Shown here in pieces: positions 5,064-42,364 of a stretch of 42,364 nt of DNA. Origin of the DNA: Paraglomus occultum (taxonomy: Eukaryota > Glomeromycota > Glomeromycetes > Paraglomerales > Paraglomeraceae). Numbering within the stretch: position 1 is the first letter of the stretch; each line of letters begins with the position of its first letter. The notes under the pieces are model-generated. The model was not told where the DNA came from. It did no database searches and worked only from the letters and a program-made list of their open reading frames with translations. The stretch is taken from positions 1-42,364 of the forward strand of contig CAJVPJ010000124.1 of the NCBI GenBank assembly GCA_910592205.1, given 5' to 3'. The position numbers and the translations under genes were made by a program.

Positions 5064-7075
5064 ATGGATGAAAATATGCCTTGTGTAAAAATTAAATTAT
5101 GTGAGAAGAACCACCCAAAGCTAATAGAAGCCGTAAGACACGTTAAACGCGCCAAAAAGTGTGTTCTTATAACGGGAGCGGGAATTTCATGTAGTGGTGG
5201 TATACCTGTGAGTATATAATATATAACATGGACATCGTATAGTCCCCAGTGTGATGACTTTCATGTTTGGAAAGAAGCAATGTCTGCTTTCCACATCACT
5301 TGACTACTTACTTCCCCATGTCATGACCGAATGTATATAACCTCTCGTATTTATATTCAAATAACCATACGTTGACATTAATTTTTTACTCCTTGACCAT
5401 GTAGGACTTTCGCTCGTCTGATGGGCTCTACAATCTAATTGCTTCTAAATACCCAGGCACATTTTCCAAAGGCAAAGACCTCTTTGACGCCAATCTCCTC
5501 CATTCAGACACCTCTCGTCGTGGTTTCTACGAGTTCATGGGTCTCTTAAAAGAGTTTATACTAAACGCTCATCCGACAGCGACACACCTCTTTATGAAAA
5601 AACTTCATGACGTAGGAAAACTCGTCCGAGTTTATACCCAGAACATCGACAATTTAGAAGAGTGCGTAGGATTAAACGTCAAATGGATGGTCAATTCAAA
5701 GTGTGCAAAGGTAGTGCAGTTGCATGGGACCATGCAAATGGTAAAGTGTACTTATTGCACAGAGAGTTTCCCGTTTACGGAAGAATATTGCGAAGTTTAT
5801 AAGCAGGGTGGAGCGCCTAGCTGTCCTGCCTGTGAAGCAAGAGGTAAGCGAACGATGAGTTGAAATGGTAAAATGTTAATGTTAGGGAAACTTACGATTG
5901 GATGTATAATAATCACACATTTTGCTTACCAACTACCAATATTATTAACTTTACCAGAAGAAACTCGACGAAAACAAGGCAAACGACGACACGCCGTGGG
6001 TCTCCTTAAACCCAGTATCCTCCTTTACGGTGATTCACATCCATTAGGCATACAAATAGGCCAGCTTGCAGCAAAAGATGAAGAACGCCTCGACTGCTTG
6101 ATAATTCTCGGCACATCTCTCCGAATACCTGGAGTCAAAGCATTAATAAGACGGTTCGCCAGAGCGGTTCACGCCCGAAATGGAAAAGTTATTCTCGTCA
6201 ATGCCACTGATGTCGCGAAAAAAGAATGGGATGGGATTATCGATTACGAAGTCGTAGGAACAAGTGATGAATGGGTTGCCTTGGTTGAGAAGGAGTTGGA
6301 GAAGAAAGAAAGTACGCGTATGAAAAAGCTGAATGAGCGAAGAAAGGAACGGGAGATGAAAGGCGGAAGAAGAAGAAAGGAAAGACTTGGTGTGAGAAGC
6401 ATATTGAATGCGAGAAGGAAGAAGGGGATCAATAGTGATATGAAAAAAGGACGTTTCGAAGCGCTGAAGTTAAATAGTGGAAATAGAAAGAGATTCCACA
6501 AGAAATCAATGCGCGTGCGAGTGCAGGATGACGAGAGTGAAAACGCTTGTTCGAGCAGTTCCGTTTATGATTCGGTGGATACTGTTGAAACTGACGATTT
6601 ATCAGACGCCAAGACTATAATGTCAGAAGATGACGAGCGTAAGCTTGAAGTCAGAGTGAACGTTGAAGTTATGAGCAGATTAACTGACACTTCTAGTCTC
6701 AGTGAGTTGTCTGATGTATCCGATAGCGAGTTATCGGATACCGAGTCTTGTAGTGAAATGGGTCGAGTGATTGTGGAGATTGAAGAGAATAGAAACATCA
6801 TGTATCTGAGTGAAAAGAGATGTGTGAAAAGTTGTATGGGAATGGCAAACAGCAATCCGATTGGGAGCTGTGTGCAATCTGATGAAGAGACAGATGCGAA
6901 GTCTAGTGATGGGGAAGTAAAACGTTATAATGGTCGTGGGCGTAAAAGGAAAGCCATCGGGCTGTTGAAAGAACAGTTTAAAGTTGTTAAAAAAGTTACG
7001 ATGATTGAGAGCGAAAAGAGAGAGATTGGAAATCCGAGGCGGTCTGCTCGATTGCTTTTGAGAAGAGGAAAGTAA
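5064..7075 (+). CDS. HST4: Sir2-family NAD-dependent histone deacetylase, Hst3/Hst4-like
   Basis: Hst3/Hst4 sirtuins remove acetyl from histone H3 Lys56 and protect genome stability in the nucleus. Three exons: 5064-5207, 5405-5843 and 5958-7075 (566 aa; joins phase 0 and phase 1). Visible motifs are the NAD-binding GAGIS (38-42) running into GIPDFRSSDGLY, TQNID (126-130), catalytic His155 in QLHGT, four zinc Cys (163, 166, 188, 191; CTYC and CPAC), LLYGD (216-220), GTSL (246-249) and the NATD loop (276-279). The short insert after the zinc fingers and LLKPSILLYGDSHPLG fit Hst3/Hst4 better than Sir2/Hst1/Hst2. After the domain (about residue 320) comes a tail of about 245 residues: first Lys/Arg-rich (ERRKEREMKGGRRRKE), then acidic and Ser-rich, then basic with RGRKRK and a final PRRSARLLLRRGK. 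These suggest nuclear localisation and nucleic-acid contact. The frame is open upstream to 4839 but has no ATG before 5064. Subfamily confidence is lower than family confidence. Confidence 0.9.
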
Positions 7076-8248: not shown

Positions 8249-11200
8249 ATGTCGAAAACTTGTGAATTTATGAGGTTTCCAAGCAGGAGGTCGGTCGTCT
8301 TTGGAACCCATTATGTGGTTGCCAGTAGGTAATTGGCGAAGGACGATATGTTTAAATTTTGCTCGGTTTTCGTCTTCTCTTTTTTTTTTTTTTGCTTTTT
8401 TTTTCTTCTTCCTCCTCTTACTATTTGTCGTGCAAGGGGGTCATGTGTTCAGTTATTCCGCACTTCAATTAGGAGATGCCGAATCTATCCGCACGGACCT
8501 AACAATGACAATAACCATTTTAATAACTGTTACGTTACAATGCCAATTTGCTATTGTCCATATCACCTTTTTTAACCGTAAAACTGTCCATCAATTCTAA
8601 AAATTGCAACCAATAGTCAGCAGTTGGCATGTCAAGCCGGTCTGGAGATACTGAAGCAAGGCGGAAACGCTGCGGTGAGCATTATAGGCAACAAAAATAA
8701 TGTGGTGTAACAGTAATTATAGTTTTACACCAACTCCATCTTACCAAGGATGATTGATGAACTTTAAATTCTGTACGCTTTTACATGAAAAATTAACTTG
8801 TACACGTTTCGTTTTACAGGATGCAGCCGTTGCAGTGGGTGAGCGAGAACAAAGAAAATAAATTAATTGCTATTAACTGGCGTTTTCGTATCTGACTTGC
8901 ACCGTTTTACTTTGGGAACACAAAGCTGCTGCATTAAATGTGACTGGTGAGCTGAATACCACTCATGTTATGACATTGGGATTATTAATTAAATTTTGAT
9001 TTCTTTCTTTAATCAGAACCTGCGTCCACCGGAATTGGGGGCGATTGCTTTTGTTTGTATTATGATGCAACAACAAAACGTGTCAATGCACTAAACGGAT
9101 CGGGAAGGTAGAAATTATGTAATAACTTGATATGGATTAATTGCACATGAATATTCAAGCCTTCGCTTTAACAAAGATAGACAAGGATTTTTTTTCTCGA
9201 TGGGGGATTTGCTCATTCTAATGTTTGGCATATTTTGATAAACACCAAGATTACCTAACAATACATTAAAACCTTTCCTGTTTTTCATCAAGATCTCCCA
9301 AGAATCTAACGCTATCCCACGTCCGAAAGTCCATTTCTGATCAAAAAGCTTGTCACATACCATTCACCAACATTAATGCGGTAACTGTTCCGGGTGCGGC
9401 TGCGGGTTGGGTGGATACGATCGAATGGTTCGGAAGCGGGCGGGTGAGTTTGGCAGATGCATTACGTCCGGCGATTGAGCTGGCGGAACATGGGTTTGGA
9501 GTCGCAGAGATTAGTGCCAAGATGGTAAGAAGGATTATTAAAACAAAAACGTATGAGAAAGGTCATGCTATTCAAACTTGTATTGCCATAGTTCAATCAA
9601 TATCTTGCTTCTGCTCCCTTAAACGACTCTTTAGTGGCAAGAAAACGAACATCTTTTGCGCACATGTTCTGCTCACGGAGTCGACATGCTTCTTGACGGA
9701 CGTGCTCCTCGTACTGGAGAAATCATGCGGATGCCCAAATTGGCGAGGTTGGTGTGAAATGCGATGGTTCTTTTTTCTTTTTTTCTCGGCGAATAGATTA
9801 CATAAGATAGAGAAAGGCGCTCGAACGATTTAACTTTTTTAGGACTTTTCGCGAGCTCGCCGAGAAGGGAAAAGACGGGTTTTACAAAGGTACGTTTCAT
9901 TCAATTTCCTAAATGTTCGCTTACATTATCATCTCTTCTGGAATATAAAACATCATGTTGACCAATAATACAAGAGCGTATAATGCGCAATAAGAATCAA
10001 GTTTGTCAAAGTGTAGGTTGCGCACTTTGAAAGAGTAATATCAATAGACAAACGTTAGAAAAAAAAACCTGTTAGGGAATGACTATTTCTCTTATAATAC
10101 TCGTGTCTTTTTCGCTTGTAGGCCGAATAGCTGAAGCTATAGTCGAACTAATCCAGTCTAAAGGCGGTGTCATGACGTTAGAGGATCTTGCAGCGCATAC
10201 CTCAACACGAGTTGAGCCCATTAGCATTGATTATAAAGGCGTCAGAGTGTGGGAGTGTCCTCCGAACGGCCAAGGTTAGTGAGAAGGAAAAAAAAAAGGT
10301 CGATTTTTGTGGTAGTATTCCACCATGTATCTTGGTAAAAATATAGAAAGAAATATTGCGCGGCATTGAGCGAACGTAACGAAATGTTATTTTATTATGA
10401 CGTCTTGTTATTTATCGCAGTACTTGTATATGTTTTTGGTTTTCCAATCGAAAATATTATCAATAACTCGATGGGAGTTTTTTCTTTTCTGTTAAAGGTC
10501 TTACTGCTCTCATGGCTCTTGGCATTCTCTCTGAACTCCAATCCAAAGGAAAGATTCCACCTCTTACTGAAATGAGGCATAACTCGGGAGAATACCTTCA
10601 CGCTATAATCGAAAGTCTACGGCTAGCATTTGCCGACACTAGATATTATGTGAGTGATCCCGAAGTTGTGCATGTGCCGGTTGAAGAATTGCTAAGTGAG
10701 GTAAGTGGGTCGTGATGAACTAGGGGGTGATGGGGGGTGTGTAGTGGGACTATTGATTCTGGGGATTTGATTAAAATCAGGGACAGCGCTTTTTTGAGGG
10801 GTAAGATTCACGTGGGGGGTTTACAATGATGGGTGATAATAGAAAGATATCACTTTATCAACGAGTTTTTGTTATCCTGTTATGCTCATAGTCGATGTCA
10901 TCATGTAACTCTTAATCTTTTTTTTGCGATATCGGAAAAGGGATTAATCCTTATTTGTCCATATTTATCCTCATTAAATTCGTCAATCGTCTTTCACGTA
11001 TGCTATTGTCGATTACAAAATTTGTGTAGCATTATCTCGCGAAGAGAGCCGAGGTGTTCGATCCAGAGAAGGCATCATATATAGAAAAGGGCTCACCATC
11101 GATTGGGAGTGACACTGTTTATTTTTCTGTTGTTGATGATTATGGGAACGCATGTAGCTTTATCGTAAGTAAACAAAGGGAATAAGGGCAACGTATTTAG

Positions 11201-21052: not shown

Positions 21053-22051
21053 GTATGATACGAAAAGAGAGAGAGAAAATGACTGATGTTATAAAAAGGT
21101 CAATTTCTCGGACTAGTTTGGTTGGATAAAGAACAGATGACTGTAATGGGGTATATTTGTTTCACACATATTATACATTAAGTATATATTCCATGCTTTG
21201 CTTTGCCGTAGAATATTGTTTCTTAGTTGTTCTATTGACTAGCCTAAATTCGTGTTTATTTTTAAACAGTTGTGGAGTCTCAATGGGCAATTGTATATAC
21301 CATTTATAATAGATAAACAAACAAACATATAGATGTTCATTCAATTCAGTACATTATATATATGATATAATATATGATATATATATTCATTCCTATCACG
21401 CAGCTAACTTCTATATTTATCATCCATTCGAGAAAAAAAGGGGAGGGGTGATGACATTAGAGGGCTGATGGCATTAGAGGGGGGGGGGGGGGGGAAACGG
21501 GTCTGGGGTGTATTGTCAAGGTATCCCTGTCGTAACGGGTGATGTTTGCAAGATTATCATATTTATTAATAATCGTAAACAAGTATATTTGGTGTTTATG
21601 AATACAAATAAGTATCACATAATAGGGCAATATTTATATTCATAATGCACTGTATATAATATAAATGTTAATAAACAACATGAATATAAAAACATGCAAC
21701 TCATACAATAATCAACCAATATAAATTAGCAATTGTTTGTATATTTTACTTTAATATTTACGTTGAATTATTTGTACACAAAAACCTTACCCAATCCTAT
21801 ATATATATACATCCAGAACAAATCGTCCTTCACTGCCTTAACAAACTCTTTCACTTTCCCGATCGCTTGTTTAAGTCTGAGTTCTATGACTCAAGAAAGC
21901 AAGGAAGATTTATGATATATTCCTCTAAATGTCAACCGTAGTCTCTCTACACTCCACCCAGACCACTCCCATTACTATCACGACGAATTGTTAATATTTT
22001 CCTCGCTTCTCTCCACAAAAACACAAAACACGTCTGCAACGCATTTCCAAG
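21053..22051. other. Upstream region of the forkhead gene
   Basis: Contains an AT palindromic tract (21354-21386, TATATATGATATAATATATG type) and a 16-base G run (21479-21494). The G run follows two near-identical copies of TGATGRCATTAGAGG. A CCAAT (21792-21796) and a TATATATATATA tract (21799-21810) lie 240-260 bp before the forkhead ATG and could be the core promoter. A pyrimidine-rich stretch precedes the ATG. Confidence 0.5.
21479..21494. repeat. Poly-G tract (16 G)
   Basis: Uninterrupted run of 16 guanines upstream of the forkhead gene, in a region of imperfect direct repeats. Potentially G-quadruplex-forming and error-prone in sequencing. Confidence 0.95.
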
Positions 22052-23719
22052 ATGCATCCACCGCCTTCACATCCACCCTTTATTCAGTCGCATGAAAATG
22101 CGTATCCCGCAACAAGACAACAGCTACCTCCTATTGATACCTTCTTTCAGTCGCGGAGTCATTCTTTCTTTCCTAGCAGTCCATCAGCACCTTCCCCTTC
22201 CGTCGCCTTTCAACAGACCTCAGTACATTCTAACCATCAAACGCTAGTGAATTCTCATAATTATCCATCTCATCTCCCCCCACAACAACAATCGATGGCA
22301 GAAATGGCTCCGCGAGCTCCTCCATCTCAGTATCCATATCAACAGATACATCCGGCTCCTCCCTACCCTCCTCCCCCTCCTCATTCTCATATACCGGCGC
22401 CTCAAAACATGCAAATATCTCCTCAACAACGCATAGCTCCTTATGCCCATCACCAGCAATTTACACAACCATCTACATTGTCTATATCACCATCACAGCA
22501 ACAACCCCCATTAATATATCCTTCTCCATTACACTATCAACAACATCACTCTCACGCAAATTCTCATCAACGGCCCACTCAAACTCAACGTTCCCAACAA
22601 CCTCTTCAGCCTCGACCAACTCTACGTTTTACCGGCCCTATTCGCGGTGGCACTCCAATGAACACGGTCGAGCAGTTCGTGACTGTCACTCCCGAACTGA
22701 ATAGCAAGTCTACCAGGAAACGCCGTAGGCCACCTTATTCATATTCTTCGTTGATTGCCCAGGCGATATTGAGTTCGCCAGAGAAGAGACTGACATTGAA
22801 AGAAATTTACAAATGGATTATGGACAAATATCCGTCCATGTACAAGCCCGATGACACAGGTTGGCAGGCAAGTATTGTGGTTTTCTCATCTCGTAAAAAA
22901 AAAAAAGAGAATAGATTGTTTGGATGGAGGGAGGGGGGGAGGTTGGCAAAGAGAATTGTAGTTAGTATCGACAATTAGTCATTGACAGACGATAAAACAC
23001 ACACACAAACTGCACACACACACTGCACACACATATACGCCTAATCTGCTAACACGCTTTCCCTTTTCTTTCAAAACCAATAGAACACGATTCGCCATAA
23101 TCTCTCCTTGAACAGATGCTTCAAGCGAGTCCCACGATCAGACACAGAACTAGGTCCAGGAACCAACAGCTCAAAAGGAAAAGGGGGTTACTGGACAATA
23201 GACCCAGAACACATGCATTCATATCATGATGGTGTCTTTGCTAGAGGAGGCGTACAACGACGTCGTCCAGGTGAAACGACCTCATCCACCGCTGCTTCCT
23301 CTCCCCAATCTGCAGTCGTAGGAGACGACGATGCTTCCGATGCTTCCGATGCTGACGATGCCTCAGATTGTGCCCAATCCGATTCGGCAAGACAATCGAA
23401 ATCATCTCCTGCTCCTACTAATGATACGTACAGTGACGGAGCTTTGTCTCCGTTAACTCCCGAATCCAATTCGCCTCCATCACCGATATCGATGACCGGT
23501 CAGTTGGGGTTAGAAAAGGAGAAGAATAATTCGCATATAGATGTGGGTAATCGTGACGTATTCCATAACGACGGGTTGAATGTAAATAATAATATAGATC
23601 AAATAGACGTTTGGGGAAAAAAGAAAGTTGAAGTGAGATCATGCGGGAACGGGGATAAGAAAAAAGACAAAGACGATTCCTCCAAAGGGGCGATGCTTAT
23701 TCGAAATTTGTTAAATTAA
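22052..23719 (+). CDS. Forkhead (winged-helix) transcription factor
   Basis: A nuclear DNA-binding regulator. In fungi, forkhead factors control the cell cycle, ribosomal genes or development; the subfamily here is not certain. Two exons, 22052-22867 and 23084-23719 (483 aa, phase 0). Residues 1-215 are Pro/Gln/His-rich and disordered, typical of activation regions. The forkhead domain runs from about 227 ([14 protein letters not shown]) through [10 protein letters not shown] to DDTGWQ at the end of exon 1. It continues in exon 2 as [18 protein letters not shown] and, after a short basic linker, [13 protein letters not shown]. All forkhead hallmarks are present. The intron splits the recognition helix and starts with GC (CAG|GCAAGT) instead of GT. 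The C-terminal tail has an Asp-Ala-Ser repeat (codon unit GATGCTTCC, about 23331-23355), Ser/Pro-rich stretches and a Lys/Asp-rich end. No FHA domain is visible. Confidence 0.93.
22868..23083 (+). other. GC-AG intron in the forkhead gene
   Basis: The donor is CAG|GCAAGT, which matches the strict consensus of the minor GC class of U2 introns. The acceptor is CCAATAG. Splicing here is the only way to recover the invariant [12 protein letters not shown] sequence of forkhead domains, and the nearest GT (four bases on) shifts the frame. The intron (216 bp) also carries a CACACA-rich tract (22995-23035). Confidence 0.88.
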
Positions 23720-37224: not shown

Positions 37225-37345
37225 ATAGTAATAGATAAAGAAAATATTACTTATGGAATTTACCAGGAAGAAAAAGTCAAAATCAATAAATCTAATTAAC
37301 TCTAACTTCTTAATTGTGATGAACCAAGAAAGAATAAGAAACTGA
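37225..37345 (+). repeat. Degenerate direct repeat, left copy
   Basis: About 110 bp similar to 38467-38570 in the same orientation: GATAAAGAAAATATTACTTA against GATCAAGAAAAATTTACTTA, then RAATTTACCA, and later TGATGAACCAAGAAAGAA in both. By eye identity is roughly 70-75 percent. Both copies carry a C-terminal coding scrap (ITYGIYQEE here, FTYEIYQQK in the right copy) and a shared trailing sequence, so they are duplicated ends of one element or gene family. Confidence 0.7.
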
Positions 37346-37639: not shown

Positions 37640-38114
37640 AGATGTCATATTGTTGAATAAGCAGTTGTGGACTTGCCACTCTGATGGTGACCATATAAGA
37701 GGCAAAATTTGCCATTAATATTAACAAGAGCATCACTCAACTTTTTGACCAATTTCTTAGGTTTGATGTAGTAGTAGTAATTAATTTCTGGATGAGTTCT
37801 GTTGGTGGGCGTAAAGGTGTAGAGATCTCCAAGCATACCCTGTGACAGTTTCAAATGTTTGACATTGATGAAATCACCCATTTTGGAAGCTGATTTTTGA
37901 AGATGTTAACAATGATATAGATAGTGAATAAAGTAGTGACAAGGTAAGCAGCATGGCATTTCATGCACAACAATTGGGCATGGTTGAATTTTTTCAAAAG
38001 ACACATACTATTCAATTCCTCAACATGGTCAGAGATGAGAATTGCTGGTCCATGATGCATGCCCATTTCCTTAAGGTCTTGTTTAGTTAGTATTAGCTTC
38101 ACAAATGCAAGCAC
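37640..38114 (-). pseudogene. Decayed SAM-like plus P-loop NTPase gene fragment
   Basis: Read on the minus strand. From about 38105 down, one frame gives VKLILTKQDLKEMGMHHGPA then ILISDHVEELN, the shape of the C-terminal helices of a SAM domain. A second frame (37881 down) gives HLKLSQGMLGDLYTFTPTN then a KLVKKLSDAL helix and NINGKFCLLYGHHQSGKSTT, a clear strand plus Walker A motif (GHHQSGKST). A frameshift separates the two parts, and the frame closes at a TGA soon after the Walker A. Sequence beyond is hydrophobic low-complexity in other frames, and no Walker B is visible. It looks like a broken copy from a multigene or mobile family of SAM/P-loop proteins, a kind I believe is expanded in mycorrhizal fungi (inference). 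Confidence 0.5.
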
Positions 38115-38365
38115 CTATAACTTCATTGTCCTCCAGTGTCACAAGATCATTTGGGTCTAGTAATAACCACACTGTCAACAAGTGACAGGTTATGCACTAG
38201 TAATAATAATAATAATAAGTTATGGACTTGTTAATTTTAATTTTCCCTTTATTATTATTGTACCAGAATGTGATGAATATAAACCATAATAGGATTAATA
38301 TTAAATATAGGATTATCTCTATATATAAAAATATTAATATGAAACTAAATTACATTAAATCCATC

Positions 38366-38509
38366 ATGGAACCCAAGAATTACAGCACTATTAGAAGTAT
38401 TTTAAAGGAGAAAATTGCTCTACCTACTTTTAAAATGAATGATACTCAAACTCTCCAAGAATATCTAGATCAAGAAAAATTTACTTATGAAATTTACCAA
38501 CAAAAATGA
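38366..38509 (+). CDS. Short ORF fragment, 47 aa, C-terminal piece of a duplicated family
   Basis: Plus-strand ORF from ATG 38366; the frame is open back to 38222 with a hydrophobic Leu/Ile/Asn-rich translation. It reads NYSTIRSILKEKIALPTF then QTLQEYLDQEKFTYEIYQQK and a stop. The end recurs in decayed form at 37225-37345. No domain recognised. Probably a gene fragment inside the repeat, not a functional gene. Confidence 0.3.
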   Translation: MEPKNYSTIRSILKEKIALPTFKMNDTQTLQEYLDQEKFTYEIYQQK

Positions 38510-38570
38510 AAAAATAAATGAGCATTAACTTCAAGTTATGATGAACCAAGAAAGAAAAGAAACCTGGCAG
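38467..38570 (+). repeat. Degenerate direct repeat, right copy
   Basis: Partner of 37225-37345 (same orientation, starts about 1.24 kb apart). Ends immediately before the decayed bacterial-like gene on the minus strand. Confidence 0.7.
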
Positions 38571-38590
38571 AATAAACAATCAAATCATTA

Positions 38591-39783
38591 TTAATCATCA
38601 TCCTCTTCATCATCCTCTTCTTCTAGTTCAGCAGGAGAGTTTCATCATTGTAATTGAGCCAGGAGTTTTCTTTTCCAGATGGCTCAACCAAGACTACTGA
38701 GGAGTAAGAGTATTCCCAGCAAAGCTCCTCAATACTCAAGCAGAAGGATTATTAATTCTTCAGAAATCTTCTTGTTTATTATTCTCAAAAGGCTTTTCAT
38801 ATTGCTTCTTGGCATGATTTTGTCCACCTAACTTTTCTGCATAATACTTAACAATTCCTTCTTCAGTAAATTTTTTCCCATCCCCATATTTATATTTAGA
38901 TTTATCTAGCCTTTTGTCACCATCTTTGTAATCTTTCATCTCTTTTAAGATTTGTTTTTTGCAGATTACTATCCACATCTAATTCCTGTAAAGCAATAGT
39001 CTCTACCACTATTTCAGGGTCCCTGGTAAAGAATCAATCTAATCACTCTTGATTGTTAGCATTAGCATTGGCTTGGGGAAGGCCATAAGTATCATCCCTT
39101 AATTCAGGTTTTTTAGCTAAAGTTTCTTTACAGTATTTAACCAATTCAGCTTTATTGATTTTACTGCTTGCTTCATTAACTTTGTCAGCAATATTTTTAA
39201 TTTCATTAGCATTGGTTTTAAAATCAACATTTTTTGAATAGTCAATATCAATTCATTTTTGAGCATTTTACGAAAAACATTAAACTCTACAATCCTCAAT
39301 GCATTTGTTAGTTCACTAGTACTAGGAAGAATCTCTTTACTCAATTGGTACTGGAGTTCCTGCTAAATATCTTTTAATTTCTTCTAACTCATTTTTCTCA
39401 ACTGGATCTAACATAATTCTTGTTTCTTTACCTTCTAAAGCAGACTTCAAAGTTTTCAAATGAGCTCTTACTGCTACTTCATTGTGTCAAGGTTCACCAT
39501 CAGCTTTTTTCCAACCATCTAATCTCTCAGCAAAATCACTTCCCAGACTTGTTCAAGAATAATACTCAGCAAAATTACCTCTTAATGCTTTTTCATCATT
39601 ATCTAAAACTGTTCTTAAAGCAGTTACATCAAATACATCAGGTCCAGTCAGAACAGCTGGGTATAAATCAGGATATTCATTTTGTCATTTTTCTACTAAA
39701 CCTAAAATGCTTCTCAAAAATAACACTTTTTTGTAACTCTTAACTCCAGATTTATTGTTGATTTTATTAAATAATAACACATT
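38591..39783 (-). pseudogene. Frameshifted Mollicutes-like gene read with TGA as tryptophan
   Basis: With the standard code this region is riddled with stops. With TGA read as Trp, long coherent frames appear on the minus strand. Block 1 (39783-39337, 148 aa) includes GLVEKWQNEYPDLYPAVLTG, EYYSWTSLGSDFAERLDGWK and ADGEPWHNEV. Block 2 uses a short frame at 39344-39267 (SKEILPSTSELTNALRIVEF) and then 39267-38902 (NAQKWIDIDYSKNVDF, NNQEWLDWFFTRDPEIVVE). Block 3 (about 38960-38697) has YKYGDGKKFTEEGIVKYYAE and EDFWRINNPSAW. Block 4 (about 38720-38591) has SSLGWAIWKRKLLAQLQWW and an acidic Glu/Asp tail before TAA. By my count 12 of 15 Trp positions are TGA. Each block is joined to the next by one frameshift. 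Mollicutes and their relatives inside arbuscular mycorrhizal fungi use this code. Product family unrecognised: soluble, Lys/Glu-rich. Either an old insertion from an endobacterium or an assembly chimera with homopolymer errors. Confidence 0.78.
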
Positions 39784-39811: not shown

Positions 39812-40455
39812 ATTAGTATTTTTTTAATTCAAAACAACACATTGTCGTCTAAGTTTGAAACCGTTCCTGGTTGAATAAGATTACGTTAGTATTTTTTAAT
39901 TTTAAACAACACATTTCCGCCTAATTTTGAAAATATGCTGGCTGGAATGTTACATATATTGAGATTAAATTATTATTGTTTAATTCAAGACGACCAGGCT
40001 TACACGTTTCAAAATTAGACAAAAATGTGTTGGCATGTTACGAATATTGAGATTACATTATAATTAGTATTTTTTTAATTCTAAACAACATATTTTCGCC
40101 GGATTTTGAAAACGTACCTGGTTAACATGTTACATATATTGAGATTACATTAGTATTTTTTAATTCAAAACGACGCATTTCCGCCTAAATTTGAAAACAT
40201 GCCTGGCTGAGATGTTACAGTACATATACAGTATTAGTATTTTTTAATTATAAACAAGATTACATTATTATTTTTTAATTCTAAACAACACAGTTCCGCT
40301 TACTTTTGAAAACGTGCCTGGCTGAGATGTTACATATATAGCGGTTACATTTTAAAACGACACATTTCCGCCTACTACTACGTGTCTGGCTGACATGTTA
40401 CATAGATTGAGATTACAATAGTATTCTTTAATTCAAAACGATACAGTCTGTCTGA
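39812..40455. repeat. Degenerate minisatellite, units about 75-95 bp
   Basis: Six to eight diverged tandem copies of a unit with TAGTATTTTTTAATTCAAAA, then CRACACATTTCCGCCTAATT, then TTGAAAACGTGCCTGGCTGA and GATGTTACATATATTGAGAT. Starts are recognisable near 39812, 39887, 39970, 40063, 40151, 40231 and 40275, with a shorter last copy near 40420. Units vary by indels. Non-coding, and it begins about 30 bp beyond the right end of the Mollicutes-like gene. Confidence 0.85.
39993..40031. repeat. Inverted core inside one minisatellite copy
   Basis: In the third unit the central segment starts ACCAGGCTTACACGTTTCAA. Its reverse complement (AACACATTTTTGTCTAATTT, then TGAAACGTGTAAGCCTGGT) matches the normal-orientation core of neighbouring units (AACACATTTCCGCCTAATTT, then TGAAAACGTGCCTGG). 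The flanks (TTTAATTCAAGACG before, GGCATGTTAC after) stay in normal orientation, so only the core of about 39 bp is flipped. Confidence 0.75.
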
Positions 40456-42364
40456 AATGTTACATACATATAATAGGTAGCATGAGTATTCAGGCAATAC
40501 TGATTTCAGTAAGATGGCATCCACAAATCAGTTGAGAATAATAATAATCTGGAATGTGTCATTTTTAGGGATAAAATAGAACCGGGAGTTGTCAATACTG
40601 CACGGCCTATAACACATGACCGGAATACTTCTAACATGCATTTCTGACAGATTTCGGAAACAAATCAGCAGCTTAATTGAGGCAGAAATTGTTTATTTAT
40701 ACTACAAAATACATAATAAATAAAAATATATACTTATATTTATATTGCTTAAAATACATATTATGTCTTACTCCTATTATCTACCTATGATTGTCTAATA
40801 TAACCAGTAAGAGAGGAAATTATCCAATAGTAAAAACCTAACCGTACTTTATATTAAATGGACATAGTCCAGTGCTTCGTCATCATTATCATCACCGACC
40901 TATGTTGACTATTCACTTTCATCATGTCAGTCAGGACAACCCCATGAGTTATGGTCCCGATGCTTGCTGACTTGTGTTGGGTAGCCAAGGTAAACTCATG
41001 CAAAGTTTGAGAATCTGCAGTAGGCTTGTGAAAGTAACTGTTCTTGATTGATTTAAATTGGTTTGTGGGGCAGGTAGGGTTGGAAACTGGGGTGCCGGAT
41101 GGTCTTATAGGCTAAGAGTTCTTCTCAGCATTGGCAAACTGTCTTCCATGATTAACGAAAACGTTTCCAAGGAAAGTCTGGCGGTAATAGCCAGCTGTTG
41201 GAATAAGCCAATAGCTCCTGGGGAGATGCCACCGGCGAAACTAGCTGCGTTTCTGCAAAATTAACTAAAAGTGACGGTTTATGAGCAAAGACAAACGATA
41301 TGAACAAGAACAATAACAACGATTCTTGTAGACTATACTTGCTGGTCTGTTCACCAGTCTGTTCACTGGTCTGTTCAGCAGTCGAAGTGCTGCCACGTAT
41401 CTTTTCATTATCTATGCGAGCAAAGTACTTTCTAACGTCCGTGCTGACACTTGACGGAAGCAGTTTGCTCACTTTTGTCTGGAAAAGTTGCAGGTAATTT
41501 TAGTAATTCCTCAAGCGACAATACGAGTTCACTCCCGCCAAGATAAATGTCATGGTAGACATTACGAGTAATTTTATAGAAGTGTTTGATATTTAGCTTG
41601 TATTGGAGAGGTTTATAATTCAATAAAGCCTGATGAGAAATGTGGCCTTCAACAAGTCTGGGACTATATCATTGGCGACCAGGCCAGGCAGAAAAGGAGA
41701 AACGAAAAAAAGCGGTAGTAACTCATAGGCCAACAGTGCATCCATTAGTCAATTAATATTACTAATCACTATCGGTGTTAGACTCCGGTTCAGTGAATCG
41801 GCCAGTAAAATCAATTATGAATGACTTGTCAAACACACTAATAATAAGGTGAGATGTTATCCTGACGGTATAACGATGATGAGATGATGTGTTAAGTGAT
41901 CGAACGGGTACAATTTATCCAATCATAATTATACCTTTCATGTGATTGTTTCGCCTGTACAACAGACATATAGATACAACATCGGAACCTAGCCTTATGT
42001 TGGTTAATAAAGTTATTAGATTTTCGCACACATAGTGAAGCCACTACGCGCTACGTGCTGATGGAAAGACTCGTCCCGTTTTGATGCAATAATATTATTA
42101 ACGCAACATCATTAACTTTAACTGGTGTCCGCTATCGACGGTCCATTATACCATACCTGCACCGTTGTCTTAATTACGTAATGGACTAGTGATTCTAATC
42201 TGCAACAAAATTAACATCATGCTAATGTTTGTTTCAAACACAGCTATTTCATTTAGAAGTGCGAGACCTGATTATTCACCAATATTTGTATCAATTTAAG
42301 TGACTAATAGTTTTCTTATTGGTAGGTAGATTTCAGGAAAGCCGTTTATGTCTTTTGCAGACGA
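40456..42364. other. Right-end region, no recognised gene
   Basis: Minus-strand open frames overlap at 41152-41623. One reads YLGGSELVLSLEELLKLP (41432-41623) and another reads SVSTDVRKYFARIDNEKIRG then an EQTSEQTGEQTS repeat (41152-41472). The switch between them looks like a frameshift or an unrecognised splice, so a decayed or lineage-specific gene is possible; I recognise no domain. The EQT repeat reflects a 12-bp tandem (CTGGTCTGTTCA-like, three copies near 41341-41376). The window ends at TTTGCAG followed by four bases, which could be an acceptor of an exon beyond the edge. Confidence 0.4.
41341..41376. repeat. 12-bp tandem repeat, three copies
   Basis: CTGGTCTGTTCA, CCAGTCTGTTCA, CTGGTCTGTTCA in a row. 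In the minus frame they encode the EQT/EQTG repeat of the unassigned ORF. Confidence 0.85.

Follow-up and report, generated by a model that had tools for sequence, protein, structure and literature searches.

A dispersed transposon family in the Paraglomus occultum assembly reads TGA as tryptophan and probably came from Mollicutes-related endobacteria

How a gene that reads TGA as tryptophan came to lie in a contig of fungal genes is the question raised by the 42,364-bp stretch of Paraglomus occultum DNA analyzed here (contig CAJVPJ010000124.1; the window). The original prediction was that a decayed endobacterial gene had been inserted into the fungal genome. The best explanation of our results is that the gene lies in an internal fragment of a DNA transposon, one that is bounded by terminal inverted repeats (TIRs), encodes a DUF7869 transposase, and in some copies carries a cargo gene as well. 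We consider it probable that this eukaryote-type transposon became adapted to genetic code 4 in Mollicutes-related endobacteria and has inserted again and again into the nuclei of the host fungi, in which its copies cannot be translated and decay.

The cargo gene in the window (38594..39771, minus strand; homologue matches P0006, P0005, and P0004) is frameshifted and 5'-truncated and is legible solely with TGA as tryptophan. Translation of the minus strand with code 4 gives blocks at 39783-39340, about 39183-38956, 38960-38739, and 38719-38594, and alignment to homologous proteins shows that these are consecutive parts of one protein with frameshifts between them. Over positions 39771-38935, the window shares 83% identity with P0006, which was predicted on a contig of a public metagenome. 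By hand count, the tryptophan sites backed by homologues comprise 11 TGA codons (in the contexts KWQ, YSW, PWH, QKW, EWL, DWF, FWR, SAW, GWA, and both tryptophans of QWWN) and two TGG codons (GWK and IWK), a tally that adjusts an initial estimate of about 12 TGA among 15 tryptophans. The encoded protein ends in a C-terminal membrane helix and an acidic tail, and its predicted structure, of low confidence (mean pLDDT 61), consists of helices throughout, the C-terminal one being of membrane type; the product is thus predicted to be a membrane-anchored, surface-type protein. No Pfam family scored above its cut-off against the cargo, and an Rfam scan of the window gave no match.

The borders first assigned to this gene, 38591 and 39783, are nearly right for the gene itself, but homology to other copies runs past it to about 38215. 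The region common to element copies (38215..38593) ends short of the terminus in the window, and the right end of a complete element in contig C43 (L052) is 70% identical to window positions 38199-38494. A small convergent frame, MEPKNYSTIRS... (38340..38575, plus strand), is open with TGA as tryptophan and resembles the start of the Geosiphon protein P0106, which begins with almost identical residues. A second relic of the right-end region lies at 37232..37342 (plus strand; 76.6% identity to 38466-38563). The window copy is an internal transposon fragment that has neither end.

To judge the code, codons were tallied in the window and 20 further loci against P0005, a protein from a separate source. 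In these 21 copies, TGA fills 142 of the 205 cells in tryptophan columns and TGG 13, and it occurs in 37 of 5,417 cells in other columns (a total summed by hand from the tally); nine of the 37 fall in a single column where the P0005 residue is valine. L052 was included in this search and gave no match. TGA therefore stands at tryptophan positions and seldom elsewhere. The tryptophan letters of P0005 hinge on the code of its own source, so independent support comes from the TGG cells and from the cut-off public proteins described below. One copy, in contig C520, is open under code 4 for 401 codons that include 14 TGA and two TGG. A reading of TGA as decayed CGA (arginine) was rejected for most sites, since TGA swaps with TGG at tryptophan columns; only five of 204 arginine cells hold TGA, and CGA-to-TGA decay does occur, for example, at one transposase arginine codon in L029. 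Given the concentration of TGA in tryptophan columns and the match to P0006, the minus-strand frames read with TGA as tryptophan are genuine, as originally proposed.

The surroundings of the gene are fungal. Exons for SIR2 (5405..5863, plus strand, profile E 3.2e-21; nearest match, Ambispora gerdemannii, 66%, which by itself would point to an Archaeosporales-like host), gamma-glutamyltranspeptidase (9270..9833, plus strand, profile E 6.4e-11), and Forkhead (21995..22978, plus strand, profile E 9.6e-18) lie on one side. Imperfect direct repeats with matches in other contigs (39812..40441) adjoin the fragment on the other, and positions 39900-42364 match repeats across many other contigs. Another copy, in the 97-kb contig C8, has nuclear sequence on both sides, as it sits between trehalose-phosphatase and M16 peptidase genes. 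The host reads the standard code, with 127 of the 146 kinase matches in the assembly free of TGA; 19 contain it (hand count), and six of the seven that have at least two are on contigs taken as endobacterial (C393, C1222, C662, C877, and C593). The code tally, the fungal flanks, and the P0006 match together sustain the view that an endobacterium-type gene lies within a fungal contig and has decayed there.

That view has to be widened in one respect, as the insertion of a single gene does not describe what was found. When the window DNA was searched against the assembly to which it belongs (1,408 contigs, 32.3 Mb in total), 25 matches were obtained: the window itself and 24 others, which lie in 23 further contigs at 69 to 88% identity; loci were sampled from 20 of these 23 contigs (all but C1227, C178, and C837). 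Beyond the end of the gene, about 0.5 kb of sequence is common to the copies and breaks off abruptly at the terminus, which, read inward, is GGGGCA(T/G)(A/G)CTGCAACAAAACCAGACAAAGTGAAC. It is held by 16 of the 20 loci; the window is without it. With up to three mismatches, the 34-base terminus occurs at 312 places in the assembly (152 on the plus and 160 on the minus strand), while a reversed control gave none. In two complete elements, in contigs C43 (L052; 5,193 bp) and C109 (L038; 1,308 bp), the terminus is inverted at each end and ATAT stands on each side, as expected of TIRs and target-site duplications; the ATAT site is AT-rich and self-complementary, so the duplication may be either 2 or 4 bases long. 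LINE-like retroposition, which had been prompted by the shared end near 38215, was dropped as a candidate after the terminus and the both-ended copies were found.

The transposase has the RNase H-like fold of TIR DNA transposons, and it contains nearly invariant acidic residues, candidates for the catalytic acidic triad. DUF7869 (PF25273) matches number 44 in 42 contigs of the assembly, and 36 of the 44 have TGA inside. Transposase copies in C125 and C1 are open for 366 and 350 codons under code 4 and score 64.2 and 63.5 bits, respectively, against a cut-off of 26. The window gene is thus part of a dispersed transposon family with 312 termini and 44 transposase matches. The complete C43 element holds a decayed DUF7869-like frame (22.9 bits, below the cut-off of 26) and, near its left end, a cysteine-rich CXC-like frame (L052:1147-1518, minus strand; 18.8 bits, below its cut-off) that is possibly a second transposon protein. 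It is also without cargo, which marks the cargo as an optional passenger. The cargo is directly preceded by the transposase, with both on one strand, in C139 and C1025; in C125, the transposase ends at about 37650, with the cargo frame opening about 100 bases further on; C125 positions 37988-38404 are 91% identical to the Dentiscutata erythropus model P0007, and the match breaks off beyond. Transposase and cargo form one unit in these three contigs.

Read with code 4, and with a 35% local-identity filter that lowers dN, pairwise dN/dS values of cargo copies range from 0.19 to 0.89 and are mostly 0.3 to 0.5 (C520 and C827, 0.24 over 387 codons; window and C216, 0.30 over 161; window and C31, 0.72 over 106). 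Mismatches at codon positions 1, 2, and 3 in DNA alignments, 902:633:1170 for the cargo and 194:116:606 for the transposase, repeat this point on selection, and the weaker bias of the cargo is expected if decay makes up part of its divergence. Both measures indicate that the copies diverged mostly during a time when TGA in these frames was read as tryptophan. There was purifying selection under code 4 in the past, and the frameshifts and stops arose after the selected divergence. The frameshift decay of the original prediction is therefore real, but most of the divergence among copies predates it and took place under selection.

These observations bear on two alternatives that would keep the history of the element in the nucleus. 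The element could be a normal nuclear transposon that copes with TGA through readthrough or a suppressor tRNA and amplifies there. The many copies in fungal contigs and the TGG found at one tryptophan site in some copies would suit this view; we regard it as improbable nonetheless, because a cargo with up to 14 TGA in 401 codons is under selection and the kinase genes of the same assembly are mostly free of TGA. Rather less credible still is that one endobacterial gene was captured by a nuclear transposon and then spread neutrally. The absence of cargo from the complete C43 element agrees with such a passenger, but the transposase is also in code 4, and the copies differ non-neutrally, as genes under selection do. 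A transposon that lived in a code-4 genome before it reached the nucleus remains our preferred reading.

A protein search with the transposase gave 138 matches, of which 120 were examined further. Among these 120 are two proteins of Candidatus Moeniiplasma glomeromycotorum, I3273_02745 (P0085; 56% identity over 74% of the query) and I3273_07265 (P0122; 59% over 48%), together with proteins from Ambispora leptoticha, Geosiphon pyriformis (on contigs of up to 2.36 Mb), Diversispora, Gigaspora, and Rhizophagus, and many from metagenomes; relatives closer than those of Ca. Moeniiplasma are found in Ambispora, in Diversispora, and on the megabase Geosiphon contigs. Some of these public proteins end or begin at TGA-tryptophan sites. 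Five of the 120 stop exactly at ...HYSYD and nine at ...TI (five of the nine from Geosiphon), directly before two tryptophans that are TGA in the elements of this assembly, and 11 begin at (V/M)PH(S/L)DQQ, right behind the first of these two sites; several fungal gene models leave out TGA-tryptophan sites. The cargo has nine homologues, none bearing an endobacterial name, and six of them (P0007-P0009 and P0011-P0013) are fungal gene models from Dentiscutata, Funneliformis, and Ambispora that mostly omit the tryptophan-rich parts and are likely misannotated code-4 genes.

In a tree of 33 hand-picked transposase sequences out of 122 (midpoint root, with a warning on two long branches), a single group of 28 rows (100/99) takes in the code-4 elements as well as both Moeniiplasma proteins and leaves out the Rhizophagus irregularis protein and four others. 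That R. irregularis protein, P0094, shares the DUF7869 domain and is homologous over most of its length (44%), but it is a full-length prediction of 636 amino acids that has no TGA truncations and presumably uses the standard code. The Moeniiplasma proteins, also DUF7869, sit in a subgroup sister to that of our elements and represent a different element, seen here at the protein level; one of them pairs with an A. leptoticha protein (100/100), and I3273_07265 has arginine instead of tryptophan at the TI[W]F site. End branches for C125, Geosiphon, Ambispora, and two Diversispora rows measure just 0.03 to 0.09, which appears too short for descent along with fungi of different orders and fits spread via endobacteria, for which PMC11423566 and PMC10507103 argue that hosts are switched.

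The altered code by itself would also allow a home in mitochondria or on a mitochondrial plasmid, from which the element leaked to the nucleus. Fungal mitochondria too read TGA as tryptophan, and mitochondrial DNA is often copied into nuclear genomes. We consider this home unlikely, since the two relatives with a Ca. Moeniiplasma annotation fall into the group of code-4 elements and since the cargo is predicted to be a membrane-anchored protein of surface type.

A Mollicutes-like endobacterium seems to have been sequenced together with the fungus. Contig C537 (C537:1-22423; L042-L044) carries a bacterial 16S gene over its full length along with bacterial frames of low GC, and it includes frames that we interpreted as ribosomal proteins, and all five integrase matches in the assembly, on C16, C853, C593, C89, and C612, contain TGA. 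The presence of such contigs, which published Glomeromycotina assemblies also include (PMC10507103 and PMC11423566), raises the concern that endobacterial reads were misassembled or amplified into fungal contigs. We think there is very little chance of this, given that the 24 other matches show different decay, that the complete elements have target duplications, that fungal genes stand on either side of the C8 copy and fungal repeats on the other flank of the window, and that models are cut at identical sites on Geosiphon contigs of 0.37 to 2.36 Mb. As a separate observation, kinase domains at C393:4405-5166, C393:19175-19933, C1222:8443-9201, C662:5127-5858, and C877:9996-10694 have two to six in-frame TGA codons and no other stop and are probably endobacterial, of the kind reported as fungus-derived.

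A donor copy was sought in several places. A DnaA search of the assembly gave no match, so its endobacterial part looks incomplete. The 42 contigs with DUF7869 include none of those that we take as endobacterial (C537, C16, C853, C593, C89, C612, C393, C1222, C662, and C877), and no terminus was seen on such contigs among 100 of the 312 places. DNA patterns from the element found nothing in GTDB contigs, where three of the six patterns of one scan and one of another contain tryptophan and, if that was written as TGG, would miss TGA; scans of viral contigs likewise found nothing. The suggested comparison with Mollicutes and other bacteria thus came up empty for the DNA of sequenced genomes, whereas at the protein level it yielded the two Ca. 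Moeniiplasma transposase relatives. As no copy was found on a contig of this assembly that we take as endobacterial, the donor step is one that we infer, and the direction originally proposed, out of the endobacterium and into the fungus, best accounts for the data while still unproven.

Our results lead us to propose that, most likely, a DDE transposon of eukaryote type entered an endobacterium (Ca. Moeniiplasma or its kin), adapted to code 4 there, took up a surface-protein gene as cargo, and then inserted repeatedly into host nuclei. The scatter of the element through fungal DNA suggests that it jumps out of the bacteria living in the fungus and into the fungal nucleus. Either a transposase made by the bacterium might act in the nucleus, or DNA from lysed endobacteria might be taken up; the ATAT duplications favor real transposition. 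Because the standard code stops at TGA, nuclear copies would be dead on arrival and decay, and a copy with these TGA codons would be unable to make its own full transposase. Endobacteria that switch hosts would spread the element between fungal orders. More tentatively, the traffic may be active in both directions: a fungal transposon was recoded in the endobacterium, gained a bacterial surface-protein gene, and returned to the nuclei of several fungal orders, perhaps via bacterium-made transposase, with the altered code as a lock that silences nuclear copies.

Endosymbiont inserts and nuclear mitochondrial inserts are familiar cases of DNA from resident genomes stranded and decaying in the nucleus, but what is stranded here is a transposon that brings its own ends, occurs in many copies, and uses an altered code. 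Gene flow in this symbiosis has been reported mainly from fungus to bacterium, as far as the consulted parts of PMC10507103 and PMC5982333 go; the former describes fungus-derived genes in Mollicutes-related endobacteria (kinases, MGMT, and LRR), whereas the transfer proposed here would run in the opposite direction via a mobile element, and the latter finds that the bacterial genes of R. irregularis do not come from known endobacteria. The text of PMC10507103 has no word beginning with "transpos." Literature listings and the consulted passages of PMC10507103, PMC5982333, PMC13315312, PMC10512289, and PMC11423566 gave no published report of the element; this coverage did not extend to the two 2015 PNAS endobacterial genome papers or to the Diversispora epigaea genome paper of 2019.

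If our proposal is true, there is dense flow from bacterium to fungus with transposition as its mechanism, and selected genes with TGA as tryptophan, hard to explain via nuclear evolution, provide a built-in mark of direction. The copies would form a datable record of former endobacteria in fungal nuclei and would account for "fungal" database proteins that end at or skip these tryptophan sites. Screens that drop hits restricted to Glomeromycotina as possible endobacterial sequence or contamination, as PMC10507103 describes in its methods, may lose real insertions.

Two minor observations concern the neighborhood of element copies. At L039:405-854 (minus strand), beside an element fragment, lies a frame that we take to resemble a Tc1-type transposase. 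In many contigs, among them C108 (40-73), C168 (39-72), C464 (40-73), and C530 (43-76), the terminus stands about 40 bases from the contig start, which looks as if near-identical elements broke the assembly, and the true copy number may be greater than that counted.
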